Shown one piece after another: positions 2,678 through 61,711 of a stretch of 64,000 nt of DNA. Position 1 is the first letter of the stretch. Each line of letters begins with the position of its first letter. The position numbers were made by a program, and so were the translations under genes. This DNA comes from Fragilaria crotonensis (Eukaryota; Bacillariophyta; Fragilariophyceae; Fragilariales; Fragilariaceae). The notes beneath the pieces were generated by a model. It ran no database searches. It was not told the origin of the DNA and worked only from the letters and a program-made list of their open reading frames with translations. The stretch covers positions 1-64,000 of the forward strand of contig JAKSYS010000214.1 in the NCBI GenBank assembly GCA_022925895.1, in the 5' to 3' direction.

Positions 2678-4003
2678 TCACGCTTTGCTGTTGCAATAGG
2701 CAGCTATGGCATCTGTGGCTGCAATGTAAGTATTCCCTGGTGGAGCAGTTGGTTTATATGACTGCTCCCGCAACCACAATTGGGCAATCCACTTGTCTTG
2801 CTTCGAATCTTCCGAAACAGCTTCGCCGCAGTGCAGCGTCCGAATGTCGAGGGGTCGTCCTTCGATCCCACCTGCAGCGGGAAAGAATAACAGGGCCGAT
2901 CCCTTGTGTGGACGCACGCGCATAGGGCCCTCTGGCCCCCCTAGATCTCGAAACATTGTGGCTCCGCCCTCATTCTCGTCCAAATCTGTCAGGTAAACAA
3001 GCAAAGTGGCCGTGCGCTGCCCGGCTTTTGTCATGGCATCACTTCCAGGTGCGAGTGCATCTAGATGCCATGTAAACTTCTCAGAACGACGATATCGAAC
3101 GGTCTGCGGCTCCTCAAATCGATCAATCGATTCAAGGCCGAATAGACGGGATGCTTTGGCCATAAGTTCTGGCACCGCCTTGTAGTGATGAAACCAAGTC
3201 GTACTCGTACGCTGAGATTCTGCGCTTGAATCCTTGCCGACTGTCTTCGATCTGCTCTGCAGCGGGGAATCAAAGTTCTTGGGCGGCGCTTGCGACATCG
3301 CGATGTAGCGATCGCACTCCTCCATAGTGAAAAAATCTTCGACAGAAATGACGAGAGGATCGACGTGAAGGACCTTGAATTTTTCAAAGGGAGGAAGCTT
3401 CGAAACAGCTAAGCCCTGTGGCGGGGCGTCGATGCTTGTGGATGTTGCCTGCCTTCCAGGTGCCACCAACAAACTATCAAGGTTCCTACCCAACGGAGGG
3501 TTGAGAAGGTCGTTGAAGCCAGGGTTGAAGGCTTCTGGTTTGCCGTTCCCAGTCGAAGTTAAGAGGTCTTGAAACGACAAAACAGGCTCCGGATCATATG
3601 AGGTTTCTCCTTCGTCGGCAAGATAGTTGAAACTGCGAAATCCATATATATGTGCCAGGCGCTCATAGATATCCATTGGCAGATCTGCAACAGGAGCATT
3701 TTGGTTGCCCGTAAATGGGAGCAAGGTTTTCCCAACGTCTAAATCTAAGGCCGGGAAGGCAGCGTAATCGTCCTGAACATTGGTAACAACTTGCTTGGTA
3801 GTGGGAACCGCCCCGAAACCACCACTCCTTCCACTGGAGGACTGGGTACTAGTACTATGGTTTTTCGAGCTCCTACTAGCGGACTTCTTTACTTTCGCTA
3901 GCAAAACACTGGAGCGACGACCATCCCACAACGCCCCAGAGGATACTGGAGCAAAGGCATCAGCAGATGAGATCAACAAGATTATTAATGGAGAGATCAA
4001 CAT
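2678..4003 (-). CDS. Prolyl-4-hydroxylase-like 2OG-Fe(II) oxygenase with plastid-type presequence
   Basis: A single exon of 441 aa. The C-terminal third has the double-stranded beta-helix signature of the P4H alpha-subunit family: an iron-binding HxD in FTWHLDAL, a distal His in RTLHCGEAV, and a basic residue shortly after for 2-oxoglutarate. Such enzymes hydroxylate prolyl or other side chains using O2 and 2-oxoglutarate. The N-terminus has a hydrophobic signal segment ending in SSADAFAPVSS, which fits the diatom ASAFAP motif that directs proteins across the four plastid membranes; Phe is at the expected cleavage position. A Ser/Lys-rich stretch follows, like a transit peptide. A region of about 180 residues between presequence and catalytic domain is not recognised. 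The substrate is unknown. ATG at 4003 is chosen because the signal segment starts there. The gene is convergent with the zinc-finger gene, about 160 bases apart. Confidence 0.8.
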   Translation of the reverse strand: MLISPLIILLISSADAFAPVSSGALWDGRRSSVLLAKVKKSASRSSKNHSTSTQSSSGRSGGFGAVPTTKQVVTNVQDDYAAFPALDLDVGKTLLPFTGNQNAPVADLPMDIYERLAHIYGFRSFNYLADEGETSYDPEPVLSFQDLLTSTGNGKPEAFNPGFNDLLNPPLGRNLDSLLVAPGRQATSTSIDAPPQGLAVSKLPPFEKFKVLHVDPLVISVEDFFTMEECDRYIAMSQAPPKNFDSPLQSRSKTVGKDSSAESQRTSTTWFHHYKAVPELMAKASRLFGLESIDRFEEPQTVRYRRSEKFTWHLDALAPGSDAMTKAGQRTATLLVYLTDLDENEGGATMFRDLGGPEGPMRVRPHKGSALLFFPAAGGIEGRPLDIRTLHCGEAVSEDSKQDKWIAQLWLREQSYKPTAPPGNTYIAATDAIAAYCNSKA

Positions 4004-14553: not shown

Positions 14554-14589
14554 GGGTCCGATTAGGTTTCACCAATTTGACGTCAGCAC
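14554..14589 (+). repeat. MULE-1 left terminal inverted repeat
   Basis: 36 bases starting GGGTCCGATTAGG and ending with TGACGTCAGCAC. It matches the right end at 24103-24139 in inverted orientation with about one indel, and matches a detached copy at 30080-30123. Confidence 0.75.
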
Positions 14590-16402
14590 TTTTCTGCACT
14601 TTTGTTGCGGAATTTAACTTCTTGTATGGAATCTTTATCTTTGATTTTATCAGTGCCCTCTTTTCAAACCACCTCTTGTACAAAACTTCATTCTAGAGAA
14701 GGAACATAAATCTGCGCCACATTTGTTTGAATAGAAATAAAAATGATCCTGTCTAGATATGTATATGTCATGGTACCAGTAGTGGATTTGAGTTTACTCG
14801 CACAAAACTCATCATTTTGATATTTTATACAACTGCGATGGTATGGCACTTGTTCTCCCTGTCATTCCTGTTTCTCTTGTTGTTCTTGCTCTTCTTGCTC
14901 CTTTTGTTTCTCTTCTTGCCGTTGTTCTGTTTTTGCTCTTGTTTGTTCTCTATCTGTTGTCATTTTGCTTGCGTTACTACACCACCTACCTACCCATTAT
15001 TCTGTAACCACCAACCCCATGTTTCGTTCTCTTTAGGATCATCCACAACAAGAAGCACCATTGCTGCAGGATCCACATGCTGTGGATCAGACTCTATCTG
15101 ATCTCAAGGCTATGTCATGGACTTCTTCTTTGCCCTTCAAAGGTCATTTTTGTCATGCAACCGATGATTTCAATGCATCATTGGAAACCGAGTACGACCT
15201 CTTTGAGTACACTACCTCCATGTACAAGGGTTCCAATCACATTATTCGGTTCAATGCATCTCTTTATCCCATCAACGGTGGATTTGGAAAGGATTCAGGA
15301 GGCCATAGTCTTATCTCTGACTTACTCCAAGCTGCAAAATCTGTTGGGAATTGTGCCCTTGTTTCCAATGGTTACGGTTTGCATTCCCCAACCAATGTCA
15401 CAGATGTACTACTGACTGACCAACGCATATTGAAATGCAGTAATTTCCGCAAGTATTTGTCTGAACAAGGAGGAATGTCCTCCACACTGAATGAAAGTAC
15501 TGGAACCAACTCTTATCGTGTTACCACCTACACTGGAGATAAGAAGAATGCCCGTGGGTGCAAGAGTTCTGGCATAGCATTGAAACGTCGCAATTCAACT
15601 CTACGGTACCTCCTGCACTTGTCGTGTCAAATTCACACTCCGAATTGACCATAATAGCTTTTCCTGGTTTGCGGAATTGGAAACAACCAGCACACTGGCC
15701 ATCCTCCTCTTCTTTCCAATGAAATAAGGAATCGTAAACGCTTTCTTGACATTTCAACCCTGAAACTGTTGCTGCAATGAGTGTTGCCAACATCCAGCCT
15801 GCCAAGCTGCTCTGTTTACTAAAACCCGTAATGGCAGATTTTTACTCGTGGTCAGATGGCATATGTGCAAGGATTTACAAAAATGGCAAAAGACTTCATA
15901 GGTTCCCCAAATGTTAATGCTACCACAACAGCATCGAGTCTTCACTGTGAGAATATGTTGAGTTACTTACAAAAAAGTGGTGCCTCGTATGTCTGTCTGT
16001 ATCATCATGGCAAATCAAAGAACTACGTGGTAACAGTGTAAAGGCTGCACGCATGAAGCCATTCCTCATGATTTATCAGGTGAACTAACCAGCCTTTCTG
16101 TTATCCCAACTGACGATGACACTGATGACACTTCACCTAGTCATGAGAAGTCAGTACCTCTGGAGGTGGCAGAGACATCCGCTTTTAAGAAATATGCTTT
16201 GGAAAGCAGACTCGCGGTTGGTGCAAGGGAAGACCAGGATATACTCATTGCCTGTTGTTGGGTTTTACCAGAAGGCAGGCGCCTGTTCCACGCTTTTCCT
16301 GAAGTTGTATGCGTTGACGGCACTCACAAGACGAACAATGAAAGCAGACCATTGCTGACACTCTCTGTGAAAGATTCAAATGGAAAGGTGACTGTGGTTG
16401 TT

Positions 16403-16888
16403 TGTCAAGATCTACAGTGCTACTGTACCGTACAATGGGAACGGTACTGTCGTGTCAGCTTGTCCGTGCTCGGACTACGACGCTACAGTAGATGTCTGTT
16501 CTGCCTATCATACCTTTGATGATGGTTGGATAACTGTCTATACCAAGAAGAAGAAAGAAGGAGATCCTTTGGGCAACAAGGGAATGAGTCAGGGGCCTAG
16601 GAAGGTCAAAGACTTTACAAGAATTCATGGGATTGAACCTGTGAAAGGTGAGATCTATGGGACTGGAGTTGTTCCAGTAGGTTGTACTGCAACATCAATC
16701 CCACCTGGTGTTCCCAGAATGAGAAGGAACAGAGGCCTAATCAGTGAGATACAAGGTGGGAATGATAGTCTTAGTAGGAGATTAAAACTAAGCTCACAAT
16801 ACATGAAACTGAAATTCACGACGGTGATAAGGTAGTACTGGCAAAGGTAATACTGTATATTGAGATACGGTATCGGAATTATTTAACA
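16403..16888 (+). repeat. 5' LTR of nested Copia-type element
   Basis: 486 bases, TG...CA ends, nearly identical to 18771-19258. Confidence 0.9.
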
Positions 16889-18770
16889 CGTTTATAAACG
16901 GTCAGTTTATATCCAAGGCAAGATGGTGAACGAAACGGCTGAATCCGGGACAGGGTTTGGAACTACGGTCCGCGCATTTGCGTTCGACGGCGACGAAGCT
17001 AGATACCGCTCATGGGAGGGTAAGACACTTGCGCTCGCCAGCGCGAAAGGATTTTTGCTCGCACTAACCAGAGAGTACCGGAACGGCACTAACGGTTGAA
17101 CAGTTCGAGTATGGAGAGGTCGAAGTCACGCCAGCGACGGCGGCTACTACGGGCGGCACGGCTGCCGCTACAGTCATGCGTCCGACGACAACGGCAGAGA
17201 ACCGGAAGTACCTGGCAAAGGCAGCAGCGTGGACATATTTGGTCGCGAGTTGCACCGACAAGGCCTATGCACTTATTGAACGGTGCGAAGGGGATCCGTA
17301 CAAGGCATGGTCTATACTACAAGAGAAATACTGTGCAACGGACGCGGAAGAGAATTACCCCAGCTGGATCAGGCATTTAGCGATTGCAAGCTTGTTGGGA
17401 CGAAGAAGGACCCAGAACTCTGGTTCAATGACTTGGACCACTTGAATATGAGGCTCGCAAGGATCAACTTGAAGTATGAGAAGGACGATCTGCAAATGAA
17501 GAGTCACATAATGACAGCTATGTCGAAGGACTATGACAGCGTCATCGTCAAGTTCCGTGGAGACCTAAGCGATACGCCTTTGCGAAATTGCGAAAGGAAG
17601 TGGTACTCCAATTCAAGACCCTTGTCAAGGATGGTTGTGGAAGGGGCTCGGAATCGGTACTCAGCTCCAGCAACACATTTAAGGGAACATGCAGGAATTG
17701 CGGCAAGATTGGCCATAAGGCACATGAGTGCAGGTCGGCCAAGGTCGATCTACGGAGGGTCCCACGAAGGAAGCCAGTACTGTCGACGACGTCGATAAGT
17801 CAAATGTGACATGCTATAATTGTCAAGGGAAGGGGCATTATGCGAACGAGTGTGCGAGCGCAAAGAACTTCAAGTCTGACCCTACAGCTGATATGGCAAT
17901 GTTTGTCGGAGCGTCATGCGTGGGTACTATGCCCGTCTACAAGGGCTATGACTATTGTGCGGATGTGGGAGACAGCTTCTTCGACAACATGTCCGATTCA
18001 GTGGCTTTGGCGAGCATGAAGACACTTTGTTTGGTCATTTGATCCCGGCCTGTGGCAGTGGAGGCCGTACTAAGAACGATACTAAAACTGCACGCATTGA
18101 GGACATTGCGGCGGAGACCGAACCATCTGCCATTGAGGTTGAGTTGGTTGAAGAACAGGTATCCAAATGTGACTTGGACGTTCTTGCAACTGACATGAAC
18201 ACCCTATCATGGCTACGAATGAAACTACGGACGAATATGATAATGTCATTGTCATACCAAGCGCTTTGTCGGATCAGCAGTTACGCTGGGACTTGCGGAG
18301 GAAATGCTATTTAATGATAGCGGCGCCAATGGTGGTGTCGCATACGACAACAAGCATACAACGAATTCGACGGATTCGAATCGTGAAGTCACTATCGGAA
18401 ATAGTGGAAAATTTGCAGCATTGGGAGATGACGCAATCAAGTTGAAGGACCTACCGGATGACAATGTACCATTGGATGTGCCAGGACATGTTTCGATCGC
18501 GGAGGACATTCCTATTACTATGGTCGTTACTGGTGCTGCAACGTTGGAGACGGGTGTCGCACCGATGGAGTCATTTTCGAAAATTCTGAAGTCACTCGGG
18601 CTTATTCAATGCAAGACCGACCCATGCCTCTTCTACCTATTTGACAGGTACGGAAATTTAGAGGCAATGGTGGTCGCGTTCTGCGATGACTGCATTGCTA
18701 CTACTGGTCGTGAGTGGTGGGTCACGAGACTCAAGATTGGCATTTTGTATGATCCTCAGAACACGGAGGA

Positions 18771-19258
18771 TGTCAAGATCTACAGTGCTACTGTACCGTA
18801 CAATGGGAACGGTACTGTCGTGTCAGCTTGTCCGTGCTCGGACTACGACGCTACAGTAGATGTCTGTTCTGCCTATCATACCTTTGATGATGGTTGGATA
18901 ACTGTCTATACCAAGAAGAAGAAAGAAGGAGATCCTTTGGGCAACAAGGGAATGAGTCAGGGGCCTAGGAAGGTCAAAGACTTTACAAGAATTCATGGGA
19001 TTGAACCTGTGAAAGGTGAGATCTATGGGACTGGAGTTGTTCCAGTAGGTTGTACTGCAACATCAATCCCACCTGGTGTTCCCAGAATGAGAAGGGAACA
19101 GAGGCCTAATCAGTGAGATACAAGGGTGGGAATGATAGTCTTAGTAGGAGATTAAAACTAAGCTCACAATACATGAAACTGAAATTCACGACGGTGATAA
19201 GGTAGTACTGGCAAAGGTAATACTGTATATTGAGATACGGTATCGGAATTATTTAACA
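18771..19258 (+). repeat. 3' LTR of nested Copia-type element
   Basis: 488 bases, nearly identical to 16403-16888, followed directly by the GTTGTT duplication and the resumed MULE transposase sequence. Confidence 0.9.
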
Positions 19259-20605
19259 GTTGTTAGGTGCATTGCCCCAAATGAACGATCTTGGTTCTTC
19301 CATTGGCTATTCCAAGAAGCCATTCCTGTTCTTCTTGGTGCACAATCACTACATGCTGTGAAACTTATCATGACTGACGGTGATTCCCAAGAAATGTCAC
19401 AAGTTGACTATGCCATCTCCACACATTTTGTCAATGCAGTACATACTCGATGTGGGTGGCACCTTGTTGATCAAGGCTGGCGACGAAATTGTAAAGGCTT
19501 GGGTTATCGGAGAGGCAAGGATGATGCTGCCAAGAGGCAGGTAAGAGTGATAAAACCTGGATCTACAGCTGGATGCGGCGAGGATACTTTTCCAAGACGA
19601 GCACGAAATGTGAGTACACGCATATGTTTATTCTGTGTGATATCTGTGATACCATTTTTCTAAAAGAATCGTCAACATCAAAGAAGTTACGCCCTTTTAC
19701 ATATGTACTTGAAATCAGACACTATTAAGGCAATTTTGGGGAGGATGGTGGAGACAAGATATTGCACTTTATCCGCAATTAGGTAATTCCACAAGAGCAG
19801 AGTTATTGCTTTTATCTGAGGAAGGGGTGAGACACCGAGACGAACACAAATTCTGGGCACGAAGGTACAAATAATGCTATCAAAGCTGGTCCTTCCTGTG
19901 TGCTTCCACAGCACGGTGTTGACAAATCTATCATACTTTCTCTCCATTCCATCGTGTCTACAAATGGGAAGAATTCTAATGAGCAATTCAGAAATGCCAC
20001 TGAAAGTACCATTGACTCCCTTTTCCAAAAACCATCGAAACTGGACAGTGTCGTAAACTTCACCAGGGATGAGGTTGAGATTGCCCTGAAGAATGCCAAA
20101 AATACTGTTCCCGTATCAATGTCGCAAGAGATCCACTTACCTGAGGAACCACTCATCGACGTCTGTGCTGGACATGAAACTGAGCACATGAATACTCATC
20201 TTGACAACAATGACAACATCCTCATGGAATCAACAAGTTTAGAAACTGACTGCATTGATTTTGGATCACGTGCTCTTCACCATGAAGACGTAGCCAAATT
20301 GGAACGTTACAATGCGTACGACAGCATTATGCCAAGAGCAAAGGAACTAGTTAGTCTTGTTGATGCCTCAAAAAGCCCACATGAGAGAGGTCTTCTTGTT
20401 GAGGAGGCACTTGACAAGATTATCTTCACCGAGAAAGCCAACATGGCTTCTGAGAAACCACCACCCAAAGGGTCCCTAGTATCGGGTGTCCTGTTGGCAA
20501 GGTGTAAAAACATATGTCTCATCATGGAGTTTTTAATAGTAGATTTAGAATTTATAACAATGTTGACTTAGACTTTCGTTCTTGTTCGACATCATGAGTA
20601 GGATG

Positions 20606-21668
20606 GGGACTATTTGGTGATCGAAATTGATCTTCAAATAGCCATCACCACAGTACGAGTAACACCAGGACAGTACAATGGGGACTATTTGGTGATCGAA
20701 ATTCGATCTTCAAATAGCCGTCACAGTACGAGTAACACCAGTACAGTATGATGGGAACTATTTGGTGATCGAAATTTGATCACCAAATAGCCGTCACAGT
20801 ACAAGTAACACCAGTACAGTACATTGGCGACTATTTGGTGATCAAAATTCGATCTTCAAATAGTCATCACAGTACGAGTAACACCAGTACAGTACAATGG
20901 CGACTATTTGGTGATCGAAATTTGATCTTCAAATAGTCATCACAGTACAAGTAACACCAGTACAGTACAATGGCGACTATTTGGTGATCGAAATTCGATC
21001 TTCAAATAGTCATCACAGTACGAGTAACACCAGTACAGTACAATGGCGACTATTTGGTGATCGAAATTGACCAAATAGTCATCACAGTACTGATAACACC
21101 AGTACAGTACAATGGCGACTATTTGGTGATCAAAATTGATCTTCAAATAGCCATCACCACAGTACGAGTAACACCAGGACAGTACAATGGCGACTATTTG
21201 GTGATCAAAATTGATCTTCAAATAGCCGTCACAGTACGAGTAACACCAGTACAGTATGATGGGAACTATTTGGTGATCGAAATTTGATCACCAAATAGCC
21301 GTCACAGTACAAGTAACACCAGTACAGTACATTGGCGACTATTTGGTGATCGAAATTTGATCTTCAAATAGTCATCACAGTACGAGTAACACCAGTACAG
21401 TACAATGGCGACTATTTGGTGATCGAAATTTGATCTTCAAATAGCCGTCACAGTACGAGTAACACCAGTACAGTACAATGGCGACTATTTGGTGATCAAA
21501 ATTCGATCTTCAAATAGCCGTCACAGTACAAGTATCACCAGTACAGTACAATGGCGACTATTTGGTGATCGAAATTCGATCTTCAAATAGTCATCACAGT
21601 ACGAGTAACACCAGTACAGTACAATGGCGACTATTTGGTGATCAAAATTCGATCTTCAAATTTCAATC
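20606..21668 (+). repeat. Palindromic satellite array, about 15 units of ~72 bp
   Basis: Tandem units each contain CTATTTGGTGATC, a short centre, then GATCTTCAAATAG, followed by a spacer with CACAGTACGAGTAACACCAG and TACAGTACAATGG. Every unit can fold on itself (CTATTTG pairs with CAAATAG); in units near 20758 and 21267 the palindrome is complete (CTATTTGGTGATC...GATCACCAAATAG). Small ORFs across it are produced by the repeat itself. It is the mirror image of the array at 23165-23765. Confidence 0.9.
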
Positions 21669-21820
21669 TTTGACGAGTGTTCTGAGTGATGTCGCCCTTG
21701 AGCACTGACATACTTCTGACACGTGCGACGTGACAGAAGTATAAACTCTGATCACATTTTTCCTCCTTCGATTGCCTTGCTCAACGCTGTTGCGAATGGT
21801 TATCAAACGGCAGAAACAAC

Positions 21821-22354
21821 TTGGAAACCATCATGAGTACGTCAAAACAGGTCACTGTTATCTGTGACTTGGGGCACAGTAACAGCAGTTCCAACCTTGA
21901 CGTTAGAAAAACCATGATGAGGAGTATGGTTGTGGAATGCAAATGTAACAACTTGGAAACCATCGTGAGTACGTCAAAACAGGTCACTGTTATCTGTGAC
22001 TCGGGGCACAGTAACAGCAGTTCCAACCTTGATGTTAGAAAAACCATGATGAGGAGTACGGTTGTACAGAATGATACCACAAGTGATGACATTGGCAAGA
22101 CTGGAAAACGAGGTTTTCAACATGTATATAAATCAGGGAAAAAGTCAAGCATCACGACGCAGGAAGCATACAAGATGGAAATACAAAATGGCAAGCCAAA
22201 GAGTGTTTATGCAAAGAAGCGCAATTATTTGAAGAAGAAAAGGCTAGATAGTTTGATGCAAGTTTTGTTGTCGCATGAGCATACACTGGGCAAAGCACTG
22301 TTGCAGAACAGTTGTAAACCTTTATTCTATAGTGGAGCCGATATGGAAAACTGA
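21821..22354 (+). CDS. Cargo ORF A, unknown protein with internal duplication
   Basis: An open frame of 177 codons, read from ATG. The first 44 codons (132 bases) are repeated almost exactly in the next 44: ETIMSTSKQVTVICDLGHSN then ETIVSTSKQVTVICDSGHSN. The rest is Lys-rich (KTGKRGFQHVYKSGKKSS, YAKKRNYLKKKRLDSL) and may bind nucleic acid, but no domain is recognised. It lies between the two mirror-image arrays and in line with the oxygenase-like ORF downstream, so the two may be exons of one gene. It ends in a stop 30-60 bases before the next frame. Confidence 0.4.
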   Translation: METIMSTSKQVTVICDLGHSNSSSNLDVRKTMMRSMVVECKCNNLETIVSTSKQVTVICDSGHSNSSSNLDVRKTMMRSTVVQNDTTSDDIGKTGKRGFQHVYKSGKKSSITTQEAYKMEIQNGKPKSVYAKKRNYLKKKRLDSLMQVLLSHEHTLGKALLQNSCKPLFYSGADMEN

Positions 22355-22387
22355 ACGAGACTTTGCAAACGCATAGGTGATGCGCAC

Positions 22388-23169
22388 ATGCTGTTTGCAA
22401 TCAATGATCTTAAAGTCATTGACACTATGTCTGGTGCCCGTTTGATGTTACCAAGTGGAGATAACGTATTCACTTTGATCCCACGTCCGTATGTTGTTGA
22501 AAAACTTACAAGGGTTAACCAAACCATCGAGGCACTTTATGCACTTGAGGATGCAGAATCCAAAGCAGAAGTGCGTTGAATTAAACGACTACCTGTTGCG
22601 GAAGATAATGGCAAATACACCACTGTTGGGTTAAAGCCAAACCGTGGATCACCTGGCATAACCGAGTCTTGGCCAAAAACATTAAGTGAATGGAGCAAGA
22701 CACAAATCCGTGACTTAATGAGGAGGTGTCATGAAGTGGCAAAGGGGTTCATTCCAAGGAATGATCTTCGAGGACTGCGAAGTGCCCAATGGTTGCCGAA
22801 TGGCCAAGTATGGTAGGTATGCAATCCGAACCAATCTGGGGTAGTCTTGCCTGTGGCAAGAACTATTGTTTGAATTCTCATACCGATGACGATTTTTTCT
22901 ATTCCTTGACAACAATCGTTTCGCAACATGGATTGCAACCAGGACGGTATGATAAATACCGATTGGATGCTGAAGTGACAAACTATTTTGCATTTGCTGA
23001 GCAAGGGATTGCTGCGGCACTGAGGCCGGGAGATATGTTACTTTTCAATCCATTGTATCACCACTGTTTGACATCCCGCACATTGCATTGTCAAGAGAAA
23101 GATGTGTTTTGTGTGTCATTGTACCTTAAGACAGCAATTGTTGGAGGAAACAATAATAATGCGCTGTAA
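22388..23169 (+). pseudogene. Cargo ORF B, 2OG-Fe(II) oxygenase-like, probably broken
   Basis: Two open pieces (22388-22579 and 22789-23169) with coding-like sequence between them in other frames (GITESWPKTLSEWSK, DLMRRCHEVAKGFIPRNDLR). The last piece has the marks of a double-stranded beta-helix oxygenase: NSHTDDDFFYSLTTI with an HxD iron motif, ALRPGDMLLFNP before a distal His in LYHHCLTSRT, and a following Arg. It ends in LKTAIVGGNNNN. Similar HTDDDF proteins are recalled in diatom genomes without known function. Introns or indels could explain the frame changes. The enclosing satellite arrays and MULE ends suggest it travels as cargo. Confidence 0.5.
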
Positions 23170-23765
23170 AAATAGTCGTCTTCGTACTGTCATAGTGTTA
23201 CTTGTCCATTCGTGACTATTTGAAGATCAAAATTCGTGCACCAAATAGTCGTCTTTGTACTGTCATAGTGTTACTTGTCCATTCGTGACTATTTGAAGAT
23301 CAAAATTCGTACACCAAATAGTCGTCTTCGTACTGTCATAGTGTTACTTGTCCATTTGTGACTATTTGAAGATCGAAATTTGTACACCAAATAGTCGTCT
23401 TTGTACTGTCATAGTGTTACTTGTCCATTTGTGACTATTTGAAGATCAAAATTTGTACACCAAATAGTCATCTTCATACTGTCATACTGTTACTTGTCCA
23501 TTTGTGACTATTTGAAGATCGAAATTCGAACACCAAATAATAGTCGTCATCGTACTGTCATAGTGTTACTTGTCGATTCCTGACTATTTGAAGATCAGAA
23601 TTCGTACACAAAATAGTCGTCGTCGTACTGTCATACTGTTACTAGTTGTATGGAGCCTATTTAAAGATCAAAATTTGTACACCAAATAGTCACCTTGGTA
23701 GTGACATACTCTTCCTTGTCCATTGGAGCCTATTTCAAGATCAAAATTGGTACAGAAAAATAGTT
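23165..23765 (-). repeat. Mirror-image palindromic satellite array, about 8 units
   Basis: Units of about 72 bp with GACTATTTGAAGATC, a short centre, then CACCAAATAGTCGTC, separated by TACTGTCATAGTGTTACTTG. Read on the minus strand they correspond to the units of the 20606-21668 array, so the two arrays face each other. Units at the outer (right) end are more diverged. Confidence 0.85.
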
Positions 23766-24094
23766 CTAGTTGTGTCGATTAAGAAGAAAAGTGTATGATA
23801 GTTGTCTTCAAGGAGATTTGCAACCCTGTTGTAATCGAGTACAAAGTACTGTCGTTGATGTACTCGACTACAATCTAGTGCAAGTTCGAGTGATTCAAAA
23901 CAAGGGAAACACATGAATCACTGATAGAAGGAGATATGTTGCAGTTATCTTTCTGGCATGACAAAGGGTTGACATGCGCGTTAGGAAAAGCGCCGAAAGA
24001 AGTCAACAACAAAGATTCCGTGATTTGTCAGCCATTCAAATTTCCGATGTCTTCAAAATTCTTCTACAGGAGGAGTCACTGTAGTTTATTACTA

Positions 24095-24139
24095 TGACGT
24101 GGGTGCTGACGTCAAATTGGTGAAACCTAATCGGATCCC
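24095..24139 (-). repeat. MULE-1 right terminal inverted repeat
   Basis: 45 bases ending CCTAATCGGATCCC and containing TGACGTCA. Inverted relative to 14554-14589. It is about 93% identical to the 44-base copy at 30080-30123, including a further TGACGTGGG word upstream. Confidence 0.75.
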
Positions 24140-29810: not shown

Positions 29811-30396
29811 GCACGGCTACAAGTAATGACCGTCATTGTGCTTCACGTGCCACATGATTGTTTTCTGAATACTAGTAGAGACTAGTTGAGTGCTGCTTTG
29901 TGTAAAGAACGTATGCATATAATTAAATGAGTCATAATCCGAGTACGTCCCATTCGCACACTGTAGTACTTGTACGCGCAGTAGTAGAGATCTACGTACC
30001 AATCAGGATGCTCTCAGTATGTTACTGTCGTATTGTAGTACTGTATGTCAGTACGTTGAACGTGAATACATCAGTACTGTGACGTGGGCGCTGACGTCAA
30101 ATTGGTGAAACCTAATCGGACCCATTTGTGGTTTGTGGAGTGTGGAGTGTGGAGTGTGGACATCTTGCACATACGAGCTACTACCGGTACAGGTACAGTA
30201 TCATAGTAGTACTCGGAGTAAATGCATACTATTGTACCGGTAGTCGTACATACGAGTATCATATACGCATGAATAGTGAATAACTAAATACAGCTATTCC
30301 AACTCGGTTCGACGTGAAATGAACATGGACAGAAATCATTGAAAGCATTACTTGAGCCGCCATAATTCCATTACCGTCGGTGGCTAAGTGGTCAAC
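29811..30396. promoter_or_regulatory. Divergent promoter region with MULE terminus remnant
   Basis: This gap separates two diverging genes (FAD oxidase and BRCT protein), so it must hold both promoters. It contains the 44-base MULE end at 30080-30123 with TGACGTCA at 30091-30098, and a GGAGTGT short tandem repeat directly after it. No TATA box was assigned. Confidence 0.45.
30080..30123 (-). repeat. Detached MULE terminal repeat
   Basis: 44 bases nearly identical to the right end of MULE-1 (24095-24139), ending CCTAATCGGACCC. No transposase or matching left end lies next to it. It is about 270-310 bases from each flanking start codon. Confidence 0.75.
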
Positions 30397-38492: not shown

Positions 38493-41400
38493 GTTGTAAG
38501 TACTGTACTGCTAGAACCAAAAGCACTAGTGTACTACGGAATGTAGTACTGAATTAAATACGGAATGTACTTAGTACTATGTAATGGAGTACTAGACTAC
38601 TTAATTTACTATGGAAATCACGTGCGTATTACGTAGTGTTGAACGTAATGTACTTGTATTCATACCTGGTACTCGGAGTACAATGTATCGCACTATATGA
38701 CGTACGTAATGGAGTACTCGTACTCGAGTATCAGTACTACGTAATGTCCTACGTCATGCCCTACGTAAGGCGATGCACACATTCCTGTCTTATTGATACT
38801 ACATGGTTGTTTGTTTCAATATAACTAACATTGGATAACTACATTTCCTGATACCATTTACGTACCTTTTCAGAGTCATACCTTAGGTGTATGATTTCCT
38901 CCACCGCTTATCAGGAAACTCCGACCTGTCTCAATTAAAGTCTGGTGCCTAGCACCGATTTAAATTGCTCTAACCCTTGTTCTTTTTCATTCCAGCCCTC
39001 ACCCAATACCAGCAGTACTACATGTCCCTACTGCTGGGGAACAAAAATTCTCATTCCTTGCGCTCACTTTTTTTTGCAAAACTTGTCTCACCCAACTAAC
39101 ATTTCATCCTCAAACTTTGCAACACTCACCATGGTCAACCCAGCGCCCTCCCGTTCGCCTCCAACCAAGGCCAACCCTCCCTCCGCCCACTGTGTCAAGC
39201 CTACGAAGCACATGGCGAACTACGTCGCCGCCGACGGCGATTATGCAGCTGCTTTTGATGCAATCAAAAATGCTGTTCTTCCTACCAAGAAGCATTCTTC
39301 CATCTACATTGCTGCAACTAACACTTCTTCCTCTATTTATGCTGAACCTACTAACACCTTCACGCCCAAGAAGAGCACCAACAAGGCTCCAGGCGATTTT
39401 CAGCGCGCTCGCACGGCCCTGACTCCTGAGCAAGAGTCCGCCGAGATCTCGCGTTTCCTTGCACTCGTCGAGCAAGAACGCGCCCAAGACAACAAGACCA
39501 GGGTTACCTACGCCTGCAAACCCTCCAACGAAGCAGGATCTACCGAAATGGGTCGCTCCCATTCTATTTCCATCGACAAACGGCGCCACCAACAACATCG
39601 CAGCCGCCGAACTCCAAAGTGACAACGACGACGATGCGCGCAATAACACTTCCCCCACCTCCCTCCTGCGCCAAGACGACTCCCCACTCGCCTCCTACAA
39701 AAGGCCTATCAAGAAACAACGTGTTAGCTTCGATACCAACGTCGAAATCATCAAGAACAAGACCAACAATGAAGTCGCAGAATGCGACTCTTTCAAGTTC
39801 CTGGCGTTTGACGCCGAAGCCCTCTCCAACAACAAGAAGGGTACCATTCAAACCGCCTTTAACAGTGCTTTCCAATGCACTTCTCCAATCCGCAATCCAA
39901 CGATTACTCGTAGAGAAATCGTCGAAACTGCGAAGCCCATCAAGTTATTTCAAGAAAACGCACGTTTCACTACCGTGCTCTCCAAGGACGACCTCCCCGA
40001 AAATTCTGACGACGCCATCCTCTTTGACGACAAAAGAGCTTTCGAACAAGACCTCACTGACCTTAATCCGCCAGAAATTGGCGGAGAACGAGACGAAACA
40101 GTGACGGCAAATTTGGATGAACACCATTCCAAAAAACGCAAATTCATGTCTGGCGCCGACAACGAGTATACACCCGCGACGCCAGAACATGTGGTTTTTC
40201 CTCCTGGTACTGTTTTTACGGAGGTCTCTACGACGCCAGAAGAATTTTTCCTCACGTACTGCCCTTCTACGCCTGGGCACGAGACGCGCTTCTTCCCACA
40301 CCGCATCAATGCGGTCATACACGGCGGCAGAGTGTTCTTCCCTGGCACCCCGCCCAGCACAACCTCCGGCCGCACTCGCGGCATTTCAGTCACCAGTCTC
40401 CCCGACGAGAACACCCCCGTCCACGGTGACGCCATCAATGGCCCCGGTCCAAACGACGGCATTGGTCCGATGTCCGAGCGCGATCCCGGAATCGAAAATG
40501 CCGTTAACCCCAACTTCAACGACGACATTTGCGAAAATGTCCTTGCTGTAGTTAACATGTCAGCCAATACCTCTATCTACTCGCCGCCTGCGCTGAGTAG
40601 TAGACGTAGCGTGCATTTGTACATGCCTGAACTCACACGTACGTCATGTACTACTCACACTGCCTTTACAGACGGAATCCGAACAAAACCAATGGCTGAA
40701 ATTTTCATCAAGACTCCCCAGGACGAGAAATCAAAATTCCCTACGTCGAATTCCCCTCCCACGCCACCCTACACAGACAAGACTCCCGCGGACACCACCT
40801 ACGCGTCTGCGGACATGCTGACGACTACGATTCCAGCAGCCACACGCAATGTCCGCCTTCCATCGCCCGGACACCAAGATCTAGCTACGGTGAGACAGAC
40901 ATGACGAACAAGAAACCTACCCGCTTTTCGTCAGTCACATATCACAATTTTTCATCCAAGAAAACTGCAGCTCCTACAAACTGCAACCCCTTTCACTTCC
41001 AACCCATCTCCAACGACCCTCATATTTTTCATCCCATCGTCGACAGCGACGACTACGAGACATCATCTACCGCGTGCAACGCCTCACGTCTCATTCAAGA
41101 CTTTGAAGCCTTCAGGATCCCTACGCCCTGCAGCTTCAACAGACATCCATCTCCCTTCACGTTTGCATCCGAAACTTTTTCGCCTTTATTCTCCCATTTC
41201 ACCGCCACCGACGGCGCCTACGACTGCCTTTCTACAACTACAGGCATCACCAACTTCATCGAAGCCATGTCAAGCAATCACCCTACGGATCCCTACCAAC
41301 TTGACACTCCATTTGTCCCCCTACCGACAGACAGCATATTGGACCCAATCCACCATGTGCCCTTCCTGCAGCACTCCTCTGAGCTTGACTCAAGGACTAA

Positions 41401-44400
41401 CCCTCATGCTGCCCTTCTATATTACCCTGACGCAACTTTACAGGATAATGTTAATGGGCTAGTCACCATGCGCAACCTACCTGCATGCGTTGACGTTAGC
41501 ATCACCGCTGCATCCTTCTGCCTCCAATACATCCAATCGGACGCCGCGACCAAGAAATGTATCCGTGACCTCACTACGGACCACCTACGTCATTTCTTCC
41601 GCGAACTTCACCCTGTCCTAACTGTGGATCATACAACTATTGCTGACAATGATGACAGCATTGAGTACATCCAATGTATGCAACACACTTTGAACAGGAC
41701 AACCAACTTAGTCATGGACAATTTACCTGCTGAATTGCTCCAAACTAACTTCCCAGATGGCACTCCTGCCTCTTATCTGAGTCTCCTGACTGATCATGAG
41801 CCAGACACCCCAGGCCATGAATGTGCCCTTGCCATTCTCTATGCCTTCAAGACACTGCATCTTGTTCACTTTCTGACCTACCCTTCAAGTCAAGATACCA
41901 CTTTCAAGTTTATGCCACATGACCTCTCTGACATCATCCGGAATGTGCCATCCTTCGCGACAGCACTGAGTTTATTTCCCAACCGAAGTAATTTCAGAGA
42001 CGTCCCTGCATTCATTCACACTTTCTTCCAAGACCAACAAGTTGCTTCCAACCCCTTCGACAAGCGACAAGACAGCCAACGCTCATCCTACAATGAGCAT
42101 CCTACCAACTTTGGCTCAACCTCACTATTTGCCTTCACTTATTCTCCGCTTGTGAACGGCTTTGGTGACCCATCACCCAAAATCCCACCAAGAAGCTCTC
42201 TAGCTGCTAGGTCCCTCATCTCAGCTGCCCTCCAACACCATGCATCTCCCTCTACCAAGGTCACCAATGGTGATGACCCAGATTTGCAACCTACCAACAT
42301 CATTCTTGGAGCCCTACCCTCAGCTGACATGATCTTCAACTACCATTGCTCTGCCTTCCCAATGGCTACTCTACCTACAACTGAGCAGCTAAATGGCAAC
42401 ACTACCTATGCAATGAACCCTGCTACCACCCTAGCAGTGAACTTCGTGATTTGTTGAGATATATCTCCAAATTACCTCCAAGAGATTGACATCCCCGATG
42501 GAAACCATCAATATTCCTCGGACAAGTCCCACTTCATCCCGATTTCTACCAACACCTACAACTACTCGATCGACTGTCTACCAGATCATGAGTACCTACT
42601 CTTCCGTGTTGTCAAGACTCTTGATGTTATCGATCCCCAACGTGTGCTACCACAGACCCCAGAACCATCCAATGTTCTCATCTTCCAAGGCACACACTCT
42701 GACAATCCCTCCTACACCTCTGGATCTCAAGTTGAACTGCCTATTCCAAAGGAAGGAGCACACACTTTCCCTATCAACTATGATTCAGGTAACTTACCTA
42801 TCATTTTTGATCACAGAAATGGCAATGTTGAACCCTACACTTCAACCACAGTTCAAGCCCTCTTTCAGACTCAAGCTTGCATTCCTATGACTGCAAACTA
42901 TGAAGCAAATCAATGGGCATGTCCTAACAATCCCAGTCAACTTTGGCGCCAGTCAAATCCTGTCCACCATGTTGTTGATGATCCTCACACTGTCCCCCTT
43001 GATCTTGCTATCAGACTTATCCAAGTTATCACCACGAAACGTGGATCCGACAGTGTCTACCGCGCTTGGGCCTTGCCACATCTTCAAGACGCCCTCCAAA
43101 AGCCGGCTGATCAGATCAAACACAATCGCTTTTCATTTTTCTGGCAACAACACAATCACCCAGAATACCCATACACAAACAAGACCCCAGAATTACTCCT
43201 TAATGTCATTCCTGGTGAGTCTAGCTCCTTGTGCTCTGACAATGAAAGCACAGCCAAATCTATTACTTGCAACTCACTTTATCCCTCCAGGCCACAGACA
43301 CTATGATGTGAATGTAGCAACAGAGGATAATTACAATGTAATTAGATATGAATTGGAAAAACAACAATGTCCTCTTGAACACAATGCATTAGTTGTTCTA
43401 ACACGCAGATCATCGCTTCTACCGGAAAACAACCCGGGAATCGAACCTGCAACCCCCACTCCTGAAAATTTGGACAGTTCTACCGAAATTGACAAAACAG
43501 AACATGAAACGTCAGCAATTCCAACAAAATCCGACAGAAAATCCGTCGAATCCCTTGCAGCGACTATCACGTGCAGTCGGACAAATTCTAACACCAAAAG
43601 CCCCCTTGTCCGACACAGCAGATCAAAACCAGCCTCCAACCGCCAAAATTGTTCCCAAAACACCAACGTCAAGACCAAACGCTCCGTTGCCGACGAAACG
43701 CTCAGAAGCTCACCCAACGTTCGCTTACCCGCCAAGACAAGAGACATTCTTCGACGACGATGACCAAGACGACGAACAAGAGCACGACAACGGACCGCCT
43801 CAGATTCCCTTAGGTTCCCCTGATGCCCTGACTTCATCAACAAGAACCGACTTCACATATCCTCCGATTGAAGATCTAACAAGAACGCTCCTGAAATACG
43901 CCAAGACTGCAAACCTTCGAAAGCTGAACTATCCAAGTGATCTTCTCCAACGACGACGTCAGTTCAATGCCTTTATGGACAACCTTCAAATTGTTTGCAA
44001 CATATCTCCATGGACACGCAATGTCTTTGACCTTTGGCCAAAGCAAATCAGCTACTCCCATCCATGCATTGGCACAGCACTCTACAACCTGATCTTCACC
44101 AACATCAGTGATCCTTGCCAGAAGCACATCATTGACTGTCCACCTGATGCCAGAACTGCCATTCTGACTCTAAGACGTCATTGTGCACCGCTCACCCAAG
44201 ATCACATTGAACGCACGCGCGAATCCTTCTACTCGATCAAACAAGGTCACAAAGAAGTTGCGACATCATACTTGAATCGCATTCGACTCTAACGCGCGAC
44301 TGCTATCATGCCGGTATCCCTAACACCGATGCCGACATTATCAAAACCATCCGTGGCGGCAGCAATCACCACTTTATGCTGCTTCCTACCAACGCTTTGA

Positions 44401-46074
44401 CGCCGACATCCGTCGAGCTGAGTTGAATGACGAAGAACTACCAACTTTTGCGGAACTTGAGAGCCATTTGCTGAACATTGACGATTCACGTGGACTCACT
44501 CTCCCTTCCCAAAATCAACGCAATTACAACCAGCATGCAAATTCTGCACGTCAACCGTTTTCAAACCAATCCTCTCGCCCTCGCCAAGGCACAACGCGCG
44601 TTTTCACACCACGCCAACAACATGCCTTCAGTTCTATATTGCGACCGTACACTGCTTCAAACAGCAGGCCACCGCCTCGACCGAACAATTGAGGACCGAA
44701 TCAAGCTCCTGCACCATCAAGACAAAACAACAATGATCGCAGAAGCACACCACAACAATCTCGACCTTCTCAACAACAGACTCGCAGCTCACACCCTCTT
44801 TTCAGACTGATATCTTCAAACAATGGAAATCAACGGCGCCCTCCAAACAACACACCAGCTGTGAGACGAAACCCTAACACATCCAATGCTGCAAATATTG
44901 TATGCAACAACTGTGGAAGACTTGGCCACTATGCTAATCGATGCATAACCGCCAATCGCTCACAAAATAACCAAAACAACCGTGGAGGACCGCCGCCCAG
45001 AAATCCAAACAATGAAAATGCAGCACCCCGCAACCAGCATGCTTACTTCATTACTGACTCAACTCCATCCCAATCACATGCTTTCCACCATCAAGCATAC
45101 ATGGCCTCCTGTGATCTCCAAGACACCTTCAATGCCCCATCTGCAGTAACCTCATGGCCGGATACCAATGCTCCTCAGATGGAAATCAACAGAGCATTGC
45201 TCAACAATAAAGACAATCGACCTGTCACCGATCATGACAAACAAGTTGTCGAACAACACGAGAAACGCCTCCCATTCCGCTCCGCTGTATGTACGCTACT
45301 CTACCTTGCCTACAACACCTGTGCTGATATCCTCTTCGCAGTCTGCAAACTTGCAAAAGCCTGCGTCTGCCCTGGCGAACTCAACTTTCGTGCTCTTATC
45401 TGGCTGATTGGCTACCTACGCCGTCGCCCATACTATGCCATCAAGTTCTACCCGAATGCCACGACCAACCCTGTTTACAACATATGTTGTCAACACCGCA
45501 TTCCCAATTCCGACTTAACCGTATTTTCCGACGCCAGCTGGCAAGATTGCCCTGACACGACTGGCTGCTCTACTGTCGGTTATATGATTTTTCACAACGG
45601 TGCTCTCATCGAAGCCAAGAACTCTACGATGCCAACACCAATTGCTATGTCAACGTCCGAGGCCGAATACATGGCCGCATGCTCTGCATCCATGGCCACA
45701 GCTCACATTCGGATGTTACTCTACGACATGACGTATCTCGGAACCAAACATTGGCGCGAATCTATGCAGCGTCTTCCAACCATTCCATCGATCCTCATGA
45801 TCGACAATGAAGCCACTGTGCAGATTGCCAAGAATGGCAAACTAACCCGCAAGACTCGTCACATTGAACGACGCTTCCACTATGTCCGTCAAGGTCAACA
45901 AGGCGGTACACATCAACTACATTGGATACCTTGCGATTCCCAACTTGCCGACATTCTCACAAAAACACAAGTCTCTTCCAAAATTGATCTACACATCAAC
46001 AAAGTCTTCTGTACACTTCCTGATCACATGTTACAATCTACAAGTGAATCTACAGAGATTTGATTCAAGAGGGG

Positions 46075-57483: not shown

Positions 57484-59494
57484 TTACTTCTTCTTCGCCA
57501 GTCTGCTCTTCTCTGTCCACATCGCTTGTGGACATTTCAGCTGCCTTTCTTCGCTCTTGGTTTCTCGTAATCTTTTAATGACTTCCTCACCTTTGTGACA
57601 ATTTGTTCGCGCGGCATTTGCTTCCAAACACCGTCCTTGTCCTTGTGGACAAAAGTATATTCTTCTTTTCCAAGTCTTCAACCAATCGCAATGTAATTCT
57701 TCTTTCCATCCGGCGATGCATTCTTAAACCCGATGCGACTTGGGAAATCTTTGTTCGATACACAGCATTATAAGGATTGCCCTTCGCCTCATTTCTTTTA
57801 CCACACAATTGCCCTTCCGGCTGGTGCTCCGTCCATCTGTACAAACGGACCTGGTGGTCTTTCTAACTTTCCCAACAACTTTTGCTGCTTTCGCTCTTGT
57901 CGTGAGTCAGACGTTGCATGCGTCTCCTCATAACATCGATTGCAGATTCGATGCTCATTTCCTGCCATCCGCCATGCGTTGCTTTCTCCTCAACAAATCG
58001 AAAGCCTTCCTTTCTCAGTGTCATTACAATGTTTTTCAGAAGATTTCTTTTCTTGTCCGTCCCCATAAGCGTATCATATTGTGTAGCAAACTCGGAAGTG
58101 CGCTGAAGGTATGACCTTGGTGGCTTTGTCCCACGACCTATATCCATGTTGCCAAGCTCAAGAGTAACGATAGGTGATTCTTGTTCCAAACTCTGCCTTA
58201 TGCACGTCATTGTATCAAGTACGAGTGGAAAACGTTTCTTGTCGTAACATCCTGAAAACTGTCCACATCACTTCCTCTTTGCCTGTTCCAAGTACTCGCT
58301 CTAAAGTCTTCAGCGCAAATCCTAGCCAGGGGAGCAATATCCATCACAGATGGATAGCCGACACACGTCACAACTGTGTCGTGACGCCTTCCTTCAATTG
58401 ACAAATCCCAATGTGGGTGAACCTCTGACAGTCTCCTCATTGTTGCAAGTATCGCGGCGGCAACGTCTTTTTACCTTTCCTTTTGTGTCTCTGACCCTTT
58501 TCATGTTTTTTCATCTGTCGTGCCACCCAATGATATCCTTCCAATAAACTTATCATTGGGTGGCAGAGGCGCATCTAATGCATCCAAAGGAACTCCCCTT
58601 CTCTGCCTAGTACGCAGCGTCTGCAACCTTCTTAACGGCGTCGTCTGAGACTCAGTGTTTCTCCTCCTAGGCTTTCTTGGCAACATCTTTCGAATTTGTT
58701 CTGATTCCAATTCGACTCCTCTTCAATGTCGTCCTCATGTTCGATCTCAGAATCTGTGTCAACCAGATCGTTTAAGCCTGCATCCAAGGGCACTCGCACG
58801 GTCTCTTTGGCTGTGAATCTTCTCTGACGATTCCGGAAAAGATTTCTTCTTCCGAAACTCGTTGTTTGTCATCAAACTCTTTCGAACACCTGCTGGAGCC
58901 ACCGTTACTTGCACGTTCCCTTGCTTTCCGGAATTCTTACCAGTCGAGTTATGAATACAATTTTTTGCCTTTCGCTTTTGGGGGATTGTCTCTCCCAGTT
59001 GTTCTGAATCCGATTCGATTTTTTCTTCAATCTCAACGATGTCAGAATCCAAAGCAACGAGAGAGTCTAATCCTGCAGCCACGGGAACTACCACATTCAA
59101 TGGTTTCCATGAATTACCACCACCGCACAAGTCGGGAAACCTTTTTGTAGGTTGAGGCATTTTGATTTCTTTGTGATCCTTGTTATTTGGAATGATGAAT
59201 TTTGATACTCGGTTGCCTCTTCCCGAGACGATCCCAACTGGGTGCTTGCAATTCTGTCAATCACTTGAAAGATGCATAACCGCATGCCCTAAGAAATGCA
59301 GTCAACTTTGCTTTCTGACTGGGAATTGAAACGCCCATTCCTGATAGTGATACCTCATTCTTATTGTGTTTGAAATTGATGCTCTCCAACGAAAGACAAA
59401 AATCTAGAAGAGAAACGAACGCCAAGATTCCACTTTCGTTCTGCAATTTTCCCTTCTGTTCAAGGAGAACATGATACGCATTGGGAACTTTCAA
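57484..59494 (-). pseudogene. MULE-2 cargo ORF(s), DUF6824-like part
   Basis: Degenerate minus-strand frames. 58210-57863 ends FRFVEEKATHGGWQEM followed by SAIDVMRRRM, and near 57670 RRIYFCPQGQGRCLEANAAR is seen. This recalls the diatom-expanded DUF6824 domain (RFLK...GWxEV...A..K, and xxVxKDxDGxxWKxMPRE). Upstream frames (59160-58759, 58710-58501) are charged, with RKMLPRKPRRRN and IVEIEEKIESDSEQ, and not recognised. They lie downstream of the transposase on the same strand. The reading frame is broken several times. The domain assignment is from memory and moderate at best. Confidence 0.4.
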
Positions 59495-59632
59495 ACACAG
59501 GAAACGTCCATGCTTAACGTCATCGTCGTCCTTGTTGTTCAGTGTATAACCAAAATTGAACTTCTGTAGTCACATCGATCATGTTAGGTACAGTCAACAA
59601 CATACATGTGGATACCCACCAAATAATTTGAC

Positions 59633-61400
59633 TTACACTTCATATTCTTCTTTGGAATCTACCCCGCGGCGCATCCAGCTATACAGCCAGTTTTGAATTA
59701 CTCTCACCTGACTTCTTGCAGCATCTCTCTTTCCCTTCCGAAAGCCTAAACCTCTACATTCTCGTCTCCAGCCTTGATGAACAAGATGCCATCCACGACA
59801 GCGACTACGAACTGCATTGACAAGATATGTCGCAATGGCATAGTCGACCTGCGCCATTTCTTGGGAGTCGCCATCTGTCATGACAAGCTTAACCAACCGC
59901 AGCGTTTGAGTACCTAAGAGCACAGGAAGGCAGGGCTTCTTGAAATAAACAACGGAACAACCAAGATCTTTCATTTGGGGCAAAGCATCTGACCACTACC
60001 ATCACATTTCCGTCCGAGTCCTTGACAGAAAGAGTAAGCAAGGGTCTGCTTTCATTGTTTGTCTCATGCGTCCCATCGATGCAAACAACTTCTGGAAAGG
60101 CTTGAAAGAGACGTCTACCATCTGGCAACACCCAGCAACATGCAATAAGAATGTCCTGGTCGTCCCTTGCTCCGACGGCGTGCCTGCTTCTCTGGGCATA
60201 TTCCTTGAAATCGGCAGTCTCTGTGACCTCCAGAGGTACAGACTTATGGGCTGGGGCGCTTTCCATTGTGGTCACCATGGAAAGGCTCGTTAGATTAACC
60301 CCATCATCAACAGGATTGCCTTCGGTTCGTGCAGCCTTGCGATTTTGACCACGCATTTCTTTCGTATTCCCATTATGAAACAGACAGACAAATGATGCAC
60401 CAATTTTTTGGAGATAATTCAGCATACTGTCTGACGGTGACATATCAGAGGGTAGTGCAGCACCCTGAGGTGACGAATCCATTAAATCTTGTGCCATTCG
60501 GGAGAAACCTTGAACATAAGCCATCTGTCCGTGTAAACAGCTCACCAGTACTGCTTCGGGTGAACAATGCAGCTTGTGAGGGCAGGATATTGGCAGCAGC
60601 CATTGCAGCTGCATTTTCCAGGGTTGGAGCGCCCAGAAAACGTTTGCGATTGGTTATCTCGTTACGAGACATGGGTGGGTGACCCTATGCTGGTTGTCTC
60701 CGACCCCACAGACTAGATGAAAGCTGTACTGGTCCAGTCGGATGACAATTTTGGCAGAACAAGTGCACCTTGTATCGCGTTGCGTGCAATTACGTCGCGC
60801 AATGCCTTTCCTGAGTTATTGGAACCACGAGAGTTTTTTTGTCACCAATATAGGTTGTCACACGATAAGCATCGGCTTGGGCACCATCCAAACGCTGATG
60901 ATACTTTCGGCCGTTACTGCACAACAAAACACGTTGGTCCTTGCAGGCTTTAGCACTACTTCCATTAGATATCAGAGCACAGTTACCATGAGATCTGGCG
61001 GCTTGTTGGCATAAATCAGTGATAAGTTTTTGGCCTCCAGAATCCTTGCCGAATCCTCCCACAGTAGGGTACAGCAATGGACTGAAGCGCACAATAAACT
61101 TCATGGGGCCTTTGTATAGGGAACTAGTAGTGTACTGAACAGGTCGTGCTTCGTTTCCGATGAGGCACAGAAATCTTCGGAAGGTAAGCAAAGGTGTCCA
61201 TTGAATGGGAGCGACCCAATCCACGTTGCAGTCTTGAAAGCAGTTAAAAAGCATCCACAGGCTTTGTAGGGGAAACTACTAACTTGTCTGGATCCTAAAG
61301 GCAGAAAACGAATGGAGAGAGCATCGTGAGCATCGAAGAGTATTTTGGGAAAGCAACACGGATTGAAGCAACAAAACAAACGAACCATGGTGTGGACCAT
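59633..61400 (-). pseudogene. MULE-2 transposase, broken
   Basis: Pieces in three overlapping frames follow the MULE-1 order: IVRFSPLLYPTVGGFGKDSG and YRVTTYIGDKKT (61254-60790); ARDDQDILIACCWVLPDGRR and VVCIDGTHETNNESRPLLTL with the first Asp (60614-59889); and LVMTDGDSQEMAQVDYAIAT with the second Asp, then RGWHLVHQGWRRECRG (59983-59633). The 61400-61101 frame carries a further N-terminal part. The third acidic residue was not found in an open frame. Sequence between the pieces includes possible short introns and stops. It is similar enough to MULE-1 to be the same superfamily branch. Confidence 0.65.
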
Positions 61401-61711
61401 AAAAGGTTGAACCTGTGGTAAATTGTGGCGGAAATGTTGTGGGTATTCAATGTTATAATCACATTAACAGACGGATATTTTTATTACTGTTCAAACAAAT
61501 GTCGGGCAGATTTATGTTCCTTATCCATGACGAAGTTTTGACTAAGGTTGCTTGAAAAATGGCTCCTGTTGAAGCGAAAAAATGAAGATTCCAAAAAGTT
61601 AGATTCTGCGACTAAAATGTTGACGTCATTTCCTTGCATTCTAATCGCTTCCATACACCAATAAAAGGAGTGGGTCTTTCTGTTCTGGTTTCTGTCATCG
61701 TCTCAACAACC

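Follow-up and report, generated by a model that had tools for sequence, protein, structure and literature searches.

Inverted tandem repeats are known from transposons related to Mutator-like elements (MULEs), such as the FARE elements, in which they form the terminal inverted repeats (TIRs). In the Tm1 Mutator/Foldback elements, repeats of this kind also make up the TIRs, and target site duplications (TSDs) of 8-10 bp were described in 45 of 53 elements (PMC3169594). The VANDAL elements are MULEs with extra genes and a 9-bp TSD (PMC6446971, Table 1), and their non-coding DNA contains tandem motifs that are bound by VANC in a sequence-specific anti-silencing system (Hosaka 2017, PMC5735166). 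Accessory TET/JBP dioxygenase genes, argued to counter methylation-based silencing, were described in several lineages of fungal DNA transposons, with MuDR not among the lineages named in the abstract (Kojima 2025, PMC12730594). In diatoms, the MULE-Diatoms group 37 has TIRs of 123-124 bp and one open reading frame (ORF), and Table 1 of the same survey lists the group as 'No TSD and not indicated' (Dupeyron et al. 2019, PMC6446971). Finally, transposons with a DDE transposase normally duplicate a few target bases, and the bacterial IS1272, which has no TSD, replaces a target inverted repeat (PMC5678879). The element studied here is a MULE with matching inverted ends at 14554-24138 of a 64,000-nt stretch of the diatom Fragilaria crotonensis (contig JAKSYS010000214.1, positions 1 to 64,000; hereafter the window).

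This copy is dead and rearranged, and it belongs to a diatom MULE family of three genes and ~12-13 kb. Like the VANDAL elements it is a MULE with extra genes and tandem repeats in non-coding parts, but its units are 73 bp long and it has no TSD. It shares inverted tandem repeats with Tm1, in which they are terminal, whereas its own arrays are internal and lie between genes. With group 37 it shares a diatom host, a MULE transposase and the lack of a TSD; compared by description, it differs from that group in its ~33-36-bp TIRs, three genes, arrays and a 6-bp loss of target DNA. The explanation that we regard as quite probable is a damaged and rearranged three-gene MULE in which arrays act as gene spacers, a cassette flipped a single time, the target loses bases through a stagger of negative sign, arrays recombine and repeat units would serve as docking sites for counter-silencing factors. 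As far as the literature searched goes, the loss of a fixed 6 bp of target, the conservation of the three-gene plan and the use of arrays as gene spacers are new.

The window element is bounded on both sides by an exact 29-mer, TCCGATTAGGTTTCACCAATTTGACGTCA, matching at 14557 (+) and 24107 (-), which confirms the shared inverted ends of the original prediction. In the genome examined (62.1 Mb, 881 contigs), the 29-mer gave 91+90 matches at no more than 2 mismatches and its reversed control gave 0. The same genome contains 19 matches to silicon transporters, 18 of which exceed the cut-off, as a diatom should; among 14 control genomes one gave a match, and none gave one above the cut-off. The TIRs are ~33-36 bp long and nearly perfect; both were placed by exact end match, the left one, at the transposase end and starting with GGGTCCGATTAGG, at 14554-14589 (+) and the right one at 24103-24138 (-). 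The MULE transposase, also foreseen, was found in two parts. Its 5' part, in several frames at 15000-16402 (+), shows 93.7% DNA identity with the C31 copy across the first 1.85 kb and a Pfam match to ZSWIM1-3_RNaseH-like (E 1.1e-10) on 16034-16519, while the 3' part at 19259-20571 (+) matches Pfam MULE at 1.4e-6 on 19148-19663. In the C105 copy the same gene carries PF10551 at 1.9e-13 and PF21056 at 9e-14. An LTR (long terminal repeat) retroelement remnant at 16403-19258 (+), not noted in the original prediction, separates the two parts. Its LTRs (16403-16888 and 18771-19258) are 99.6% identical, it has a zf-CCHC match at 1.4e-6 and its 6-bp TSD, GTTGTT, was recognised by eye in a comparison with C31, where the transposase has no such interruption; by motif we take it to be Copia-like. 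Next come array A (20603-21661, +), the oxygenase-like gene cassette (21662-23169, +), which is inverted relative to the arrays by comparison with 12 other copies, and array B (23170-23764, +). They are followed by the subterminal region of the gene2 end (23766-24102, -), which has ~87% identity with its counterparts in C175 and C878. The window copy is derived, its cassette being flipped, its gene2 lost and its transposase split by the LTR element.

The array/ORF block gave 260 matches in the genome. Among the matches listed, 30 array loci could be distinguished, on contigs numbered up to C504, and 11 loci were mapped besides the window copy. Nine of them are complete, having two ends and every part (C175, C878, C31, C451, C183, C48, C304, C105 and C150; 11.9-13.0 kb), so that the genome holds at least nine such copies; C305 is cut off where its contig stops, and C41 has undergone rearrangement. 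All nine share one plan: a TIR, the transposase gene pointing inwards, array A, the oxygenase-like gene in the opposite direction, array B, gene2 in the direction of the transposase, a third array (B2) and the other TIR. Arrays and ORF belong together inside the MULE, as had been proposed. Capture of a satellite by chance was rejected because the arrays sit at the same gene borders in 9/9 complete copies. As the sequences show, the arrays form the spacers between genes in a fixed multi-gene plan. One scan for relatives in viral contigs confirmed none.

On the question whether the block occurs apart from MULE ends, among the matches listed an exact TIR lies within ~15 kb of 28/30 array loci, and the remaining two (C17 and C114) adjoin a transposase match. 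The ends do occur without the block. Seven short copies have MULE ends and no oxygenase block, six of them of ~160-170 bp and one of ~540 bp, and mid-sized copies of 2.3-2.9 kb are internal deletions that kept array A and lacked the cassette in the three looked at. A foldback-like element with its own gene, nested inside the MULE, had been put forward as one reading, and inverted arrays do flank one gene in the window. It is scarcely credible, however, with a MULE end or a transposase beside all 30 tallied loci and with a third array and a further gene in every complete copy; moreover, the TIRs measure ~33-36 bp, unlike the long tandem-repeat TIRs of foldback elements, and the arrays are internal. 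The other reading, in which the block is cargo captured by the MULE, is not supported either, as the arrays are spacers of the fixed plan and the oxygenase-like gene belongs to the element's old gene set (see below).

Both arrays have a period of 73 (Tandem Repeats Finder, TRF). Array A holds 14.5 copies with 91% match, and array B, reported at 23170-23754, holds 8.0 copies with 88% match. The A and B unit types are ~70-80% identical in opposite orientation, so the arrays face each other, as predicted for a ~72-bp repeat. The description of that repeat as a hairpin applies to A and weakly to B, as judged from the fold scores of their units. For instance, the A unit is a strong hairpin with DNA fold z of -3.4 to -6.9 in 4 folds, two of which are overlapping stretches of one array, and 0-1 of 200 shuffles folded equally well. 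On the contrary, the B unit keeps outer arms of 9-10 bp and folded no better than shuffles (z +0.5, -0.3, -0.5, -0.6 and -1.0 in 5 folds, the first two of which cut through the palindrome).

The ORF at 22765-23169 contains HTDDDFFYS and was predicted to be 2OG-Fe(II) (2-oxoglutarate and iron dependent) oxygenase-like. The ORF stands, and its oxygenase identity comes from the motif. H326, D328 and H387 are invariant in the 3 sequences of one alignment and the same columns in the 4 of another; this HxD...H pattern is what we take to be the iron ligands of 2OG-Fe(II) oxygenases. Several results limit the assignment. No Pfam match above cut-off and no NCBIfam match were found, and no PDB match was better than E 0.7. 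Sub-cut-off Pfam matches were to other families, namely TBK1_CCD1 at 4e-4 (window fragment) and 0.022 (C105) and TRI9 at 0.023 (C411), and AlphaFold models from a single sequence and from four sequences reached a mean pLDDT (predicted local distance difference test) of 31 and 32, too low to be used. The protein is called oxygenase-like accordingly, by motif, and is a putative oxygenase. The likeness to the fungal transposons (PMC12730594) would lie in an accessory dioxygenase gene, putative here, but Pfam scans of the protein gave no TET/JBP match. In the window the gene is broken into four open stretches between 21752 and 23169. Those at 21752-22354, 22355-22579 and 22580-22816 are in one frame with stops between them, and that at 22765-23169 is in another; the frame is open in C105 (420 aa) and in C305 (433 aa).

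A protein search of the genome found 34 further oxygenase-like loci outside the main family, with ~39-79% identity over the matched stretches, several of which have open frames of up to 500 aa. The loci were merged by hand, and the two C57 loci as well as C12:2156 and C841, which score alike, may be duplicates. A transposase or gene2 match lies within 10 kb of 15/34: thirteen are near a transposase, all convergent, and four near gene2, all divergent, against a chance expectation of ~0.4 transposase neighbours (34 x 38 loci x 20 kb / 62 Mb). In parallel, the ratio of non-synonymous to synonymous change (dN/dS) was 0.11-0.32 among well-kept oxygenase-like genes. It was 0.22 between the window and C305 (12 synonymous and 10 non-synonymous changes; binomial 0.002 with an assumed non-synonymous share of 0.76), 0.32 between the window and C105, 0.26 between the flipped C305 and the unflipped C105, and 0.13 and 0.11 between C54 and C105 or C305. 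The transposase gave 0.27 and 0.22 for the window against C105. The following points speak against this view of an old gene under constraint. No transposase or gene2 match was found within 10 kb of 19/34 diverged loci. Higher ratios with few changes were observed for C41 (0.37) and C878 (0.46, 8 changes), and decayed or short copies gave 0.76 (C93 vs C305), 0.82 (C63 vs C105) and 1.33 (C17 vs C105). Comparisons with C411 were saturated, and gene2 itself gave 0.53-0.70. The ratios among well-kept copies show selection on the oxygenase-like gene and on the transposase, and the oxygenase-like gene is an old and constrained member of the element's gene set.

The orientation of the cassette was scored against the two array types in 18 copies. 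It is opposed to the arrays in 12, that is the nine complete copies, C77, C765 and C17 (the last scored on the B side only), and agrees with them in six: the window copy, C305, C41, C93, C63 and C418. C114, with B-type arrays on both sides, was excluded. In the nine complete copies the oxygenase-like gene faces the transposase, whereas in the window it follows it; in C41 the whole block is turned round and B adjoins a truncated transposase. The six flipped copies form one clade in the cassette tree of the 18 copies, with a bootstrap of 100, so a single inversion suffices, and the convergent gene order of the diverged relatives points to the unflipped state as ancestral. These comparisons show one flip of the cassette between the inverted arrays A and B, in one clade. 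A recombinase-driven switch that serves to invert the cassette (phase variation) would fit the open frames found in both orientations, in C105 and C305, but it is very improbable: orientation maps to a single clade in which one change is enough, and the Pfam and NCBIfam scans made recognised no recombinase gene in the element. As separate observations, the C114 locus (L039, C114:34600-36800), a further rearrangement product, has lost its cassette and carries B-type arrays to either side of the deletion, and C93:6906-7069 (L056) and C305 near 8.4 kb (L021) share a nearly identical flank at the gene2 end, which resembles alleles or a duplication, yet their cassettes differ by ~6%.

The position of the arrays bears on what they may do. 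In the complete copies, array A lies between two 3' ends, as the shared 3' spacer of the transposase and the oxygenase-like gene, and B lies between two 5' ends. This layout, the strong hairpins of A and the stop codon of the C105 oxygenase-like gene, which is the TAG of the CAAATAG of the first array unit (end of the 420-aa ORF, ancestral orientation, L032), would be expected if the arrays were ordinary intergenic regulatory DNA without a counter-silencing role, A providing transcription-end hairpins and B a bidirectional promoter, or both acting as insulators. We consider this possible and somewhat unlikely. B2 and B are of one unit type, yet B2 is at a 3' end and B at a 5' end. In addition, after the flip the gene remained under selection with A upstream and B downstream, so a dedicated promoter or terminator role seems to suit neither array. 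A gene under selection was retained with the cassette either way round, and the arrays therefore seem to function in both orientations.

Gene2 is a long frame of 961 aa in C451 with a DUF6824 match at 9.9e-12; a PDB search gave no match better than E 1.8. An assignment to GNAT is not claimed, the only match being a weak one to rimI (E 0.027, far below the cut-off), nor is one to Ulp1, which was considered and found no supporting result. The window copy apparently lost this gene when B recombined with B2. At its outer end the window array B continues into the subterminal region, like B2 in C31 and C305, and this continuity is the one feature that speaks for a fusion of B and B2; against it, the window B units match B and B2 equally well (82-84% each). 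We infer that array recombination caused both changes: an exchange between A and B would flip the cassette, and one between B and B2 would delete gene2. The element appears to have rebuilt itself through its arrays.

The MULE-type DDE transposase (PF10551 and PF21056 on C105) and the TIRs are those of the superfamily, whose 8-11-bp TSD was found in 0/31 copies; because Table 1 of PMC6446971 lists diatom MULEs without TSD, the MULE name is kept on transposase and TIRs, with this exception. Exact border repeats measured 0-3 bp in the 31 copies, and any 8-11-bp comparison by script had at least 4 mismatches. Joined flanks of 30 loci were searched for empty sites, and usable pre-insertion sites were obtained for nine. 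At eight of them (C150, C451, C416, C40, C268=L046, C143=L041, C34=L040 and C304), 6 bp of target are gone at the junction. In three cases the target is a dispersed repeat, and its other copies exceed the joined flanks in length: +6 bp in 17/17 copies for L046, +6 bp in 11/18 for C416 and +5 bp net in 28/38 for C451, where the copy C309 revealed 6 bp missing at the junction and one T gained further off. The missing 6-mers show no clear common motif, although several contain CAT.

Some observations run counter to a fixed loss. A shift of the ends by 4 bases reveals in C437 an imperfect 9-bp direct repeat with 1 mismatch that overlaps the TIR ends. Between C418 and C602 there is 0 net loss, and the junction carries two mismatches. 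The net difference is 8 bp for C304, where a TA run close by accounts for 2, and 6 bp for C40, with a T-run shift. Other length differences occur in 7/18 (C416) and 10/38 (C451) repeat copies, and three weaker junction-spanning matches were left unused (C342/C219, 86% identity, +22; C437/C99, 76% identity, +5; L042/C382, 76% identity, +10). The locus without loss, one of nine, and the outer three bases, which differ between the ends (GGG vs AGA or GGA in most copies, TAG in one short copy), would also suit a false signal from ends that were miscalled or from footprints that excision had left in the empty sites. This is unlikely. Each end has its own outer bases, unchanged in nearly all copies, which makes them part of the element; the three dispersed-repeat targets keep the 6 bp in most other copies; and the LTR insertion in the same window has a normal TSD. 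The comparisons show insertion without TSD and with loss of 6 bp of target at 8/9 sites.

IS1272 is similar in lacking a TSD and in replacing target bases (PMC5678879), but what is lost here is a fixed 6 bp, mostly non-palindromic. Replacement of a target repeat in the manner of IS1272 was rejected, as one missing 6-mer lies inside a palindrome (AGCATG in AGCATGCT) and most, judged by eye, do not. Instead, the transposase may attach both ends across a 6-bp stagger whose sign is opposite to the usual one, so that the bases between the joints would be lost and not copied. If true, this would be a different strand-joining geometry within a well-known superfamily. Among the papers listed by searches of the mostly open-access literature, none was seen that describes a MULE deleting a fixed length of target, or one from a diatom that carries an oxygenase-like gene.

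By analogy with VANC and the VANDAL elements, the oxygenase-like protein and the gene2 product could be counter-silencing factors, with the repeat units as their docking sites. A putative function of the arrays as a counter-silencing platform is our best guess. The gene set would then offer a counter-silencing candidate beyond those of plants and fungi, and the arrays would mark possible DNA docking sites. The wider proposal, a MULE lineage that combines a fixed negative stagger deleting 6 bp with an ancient counter-silencing pair (oxygenase-like and DUF6824) docked on palindromic arrays, which would function either way round and let the element reshuffle its gene order, is put forward tentatively, as less likely than not.

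Elsewhere in the window, a truncated short copy of the family was observed at ~29990-30123 (-); it has an exact TIR at one end only (30092-30120). Another MULE of similar kind, diverged and with a broken transposase, lies at 59199-61619 (-), with 58% protein identity and ~69% DNA identity to C31. Judged by motif, a host gene at 2678-4003 (-) resembles a prolyl 4-hydroxylase, and the frames at 40146-46063 (+) resemble another Copia-type retroelement. Finally, a single open frame of 1456 aa with three silicon-transporter domains was found elsewhere in the genome (G000:C97:29749-33762).

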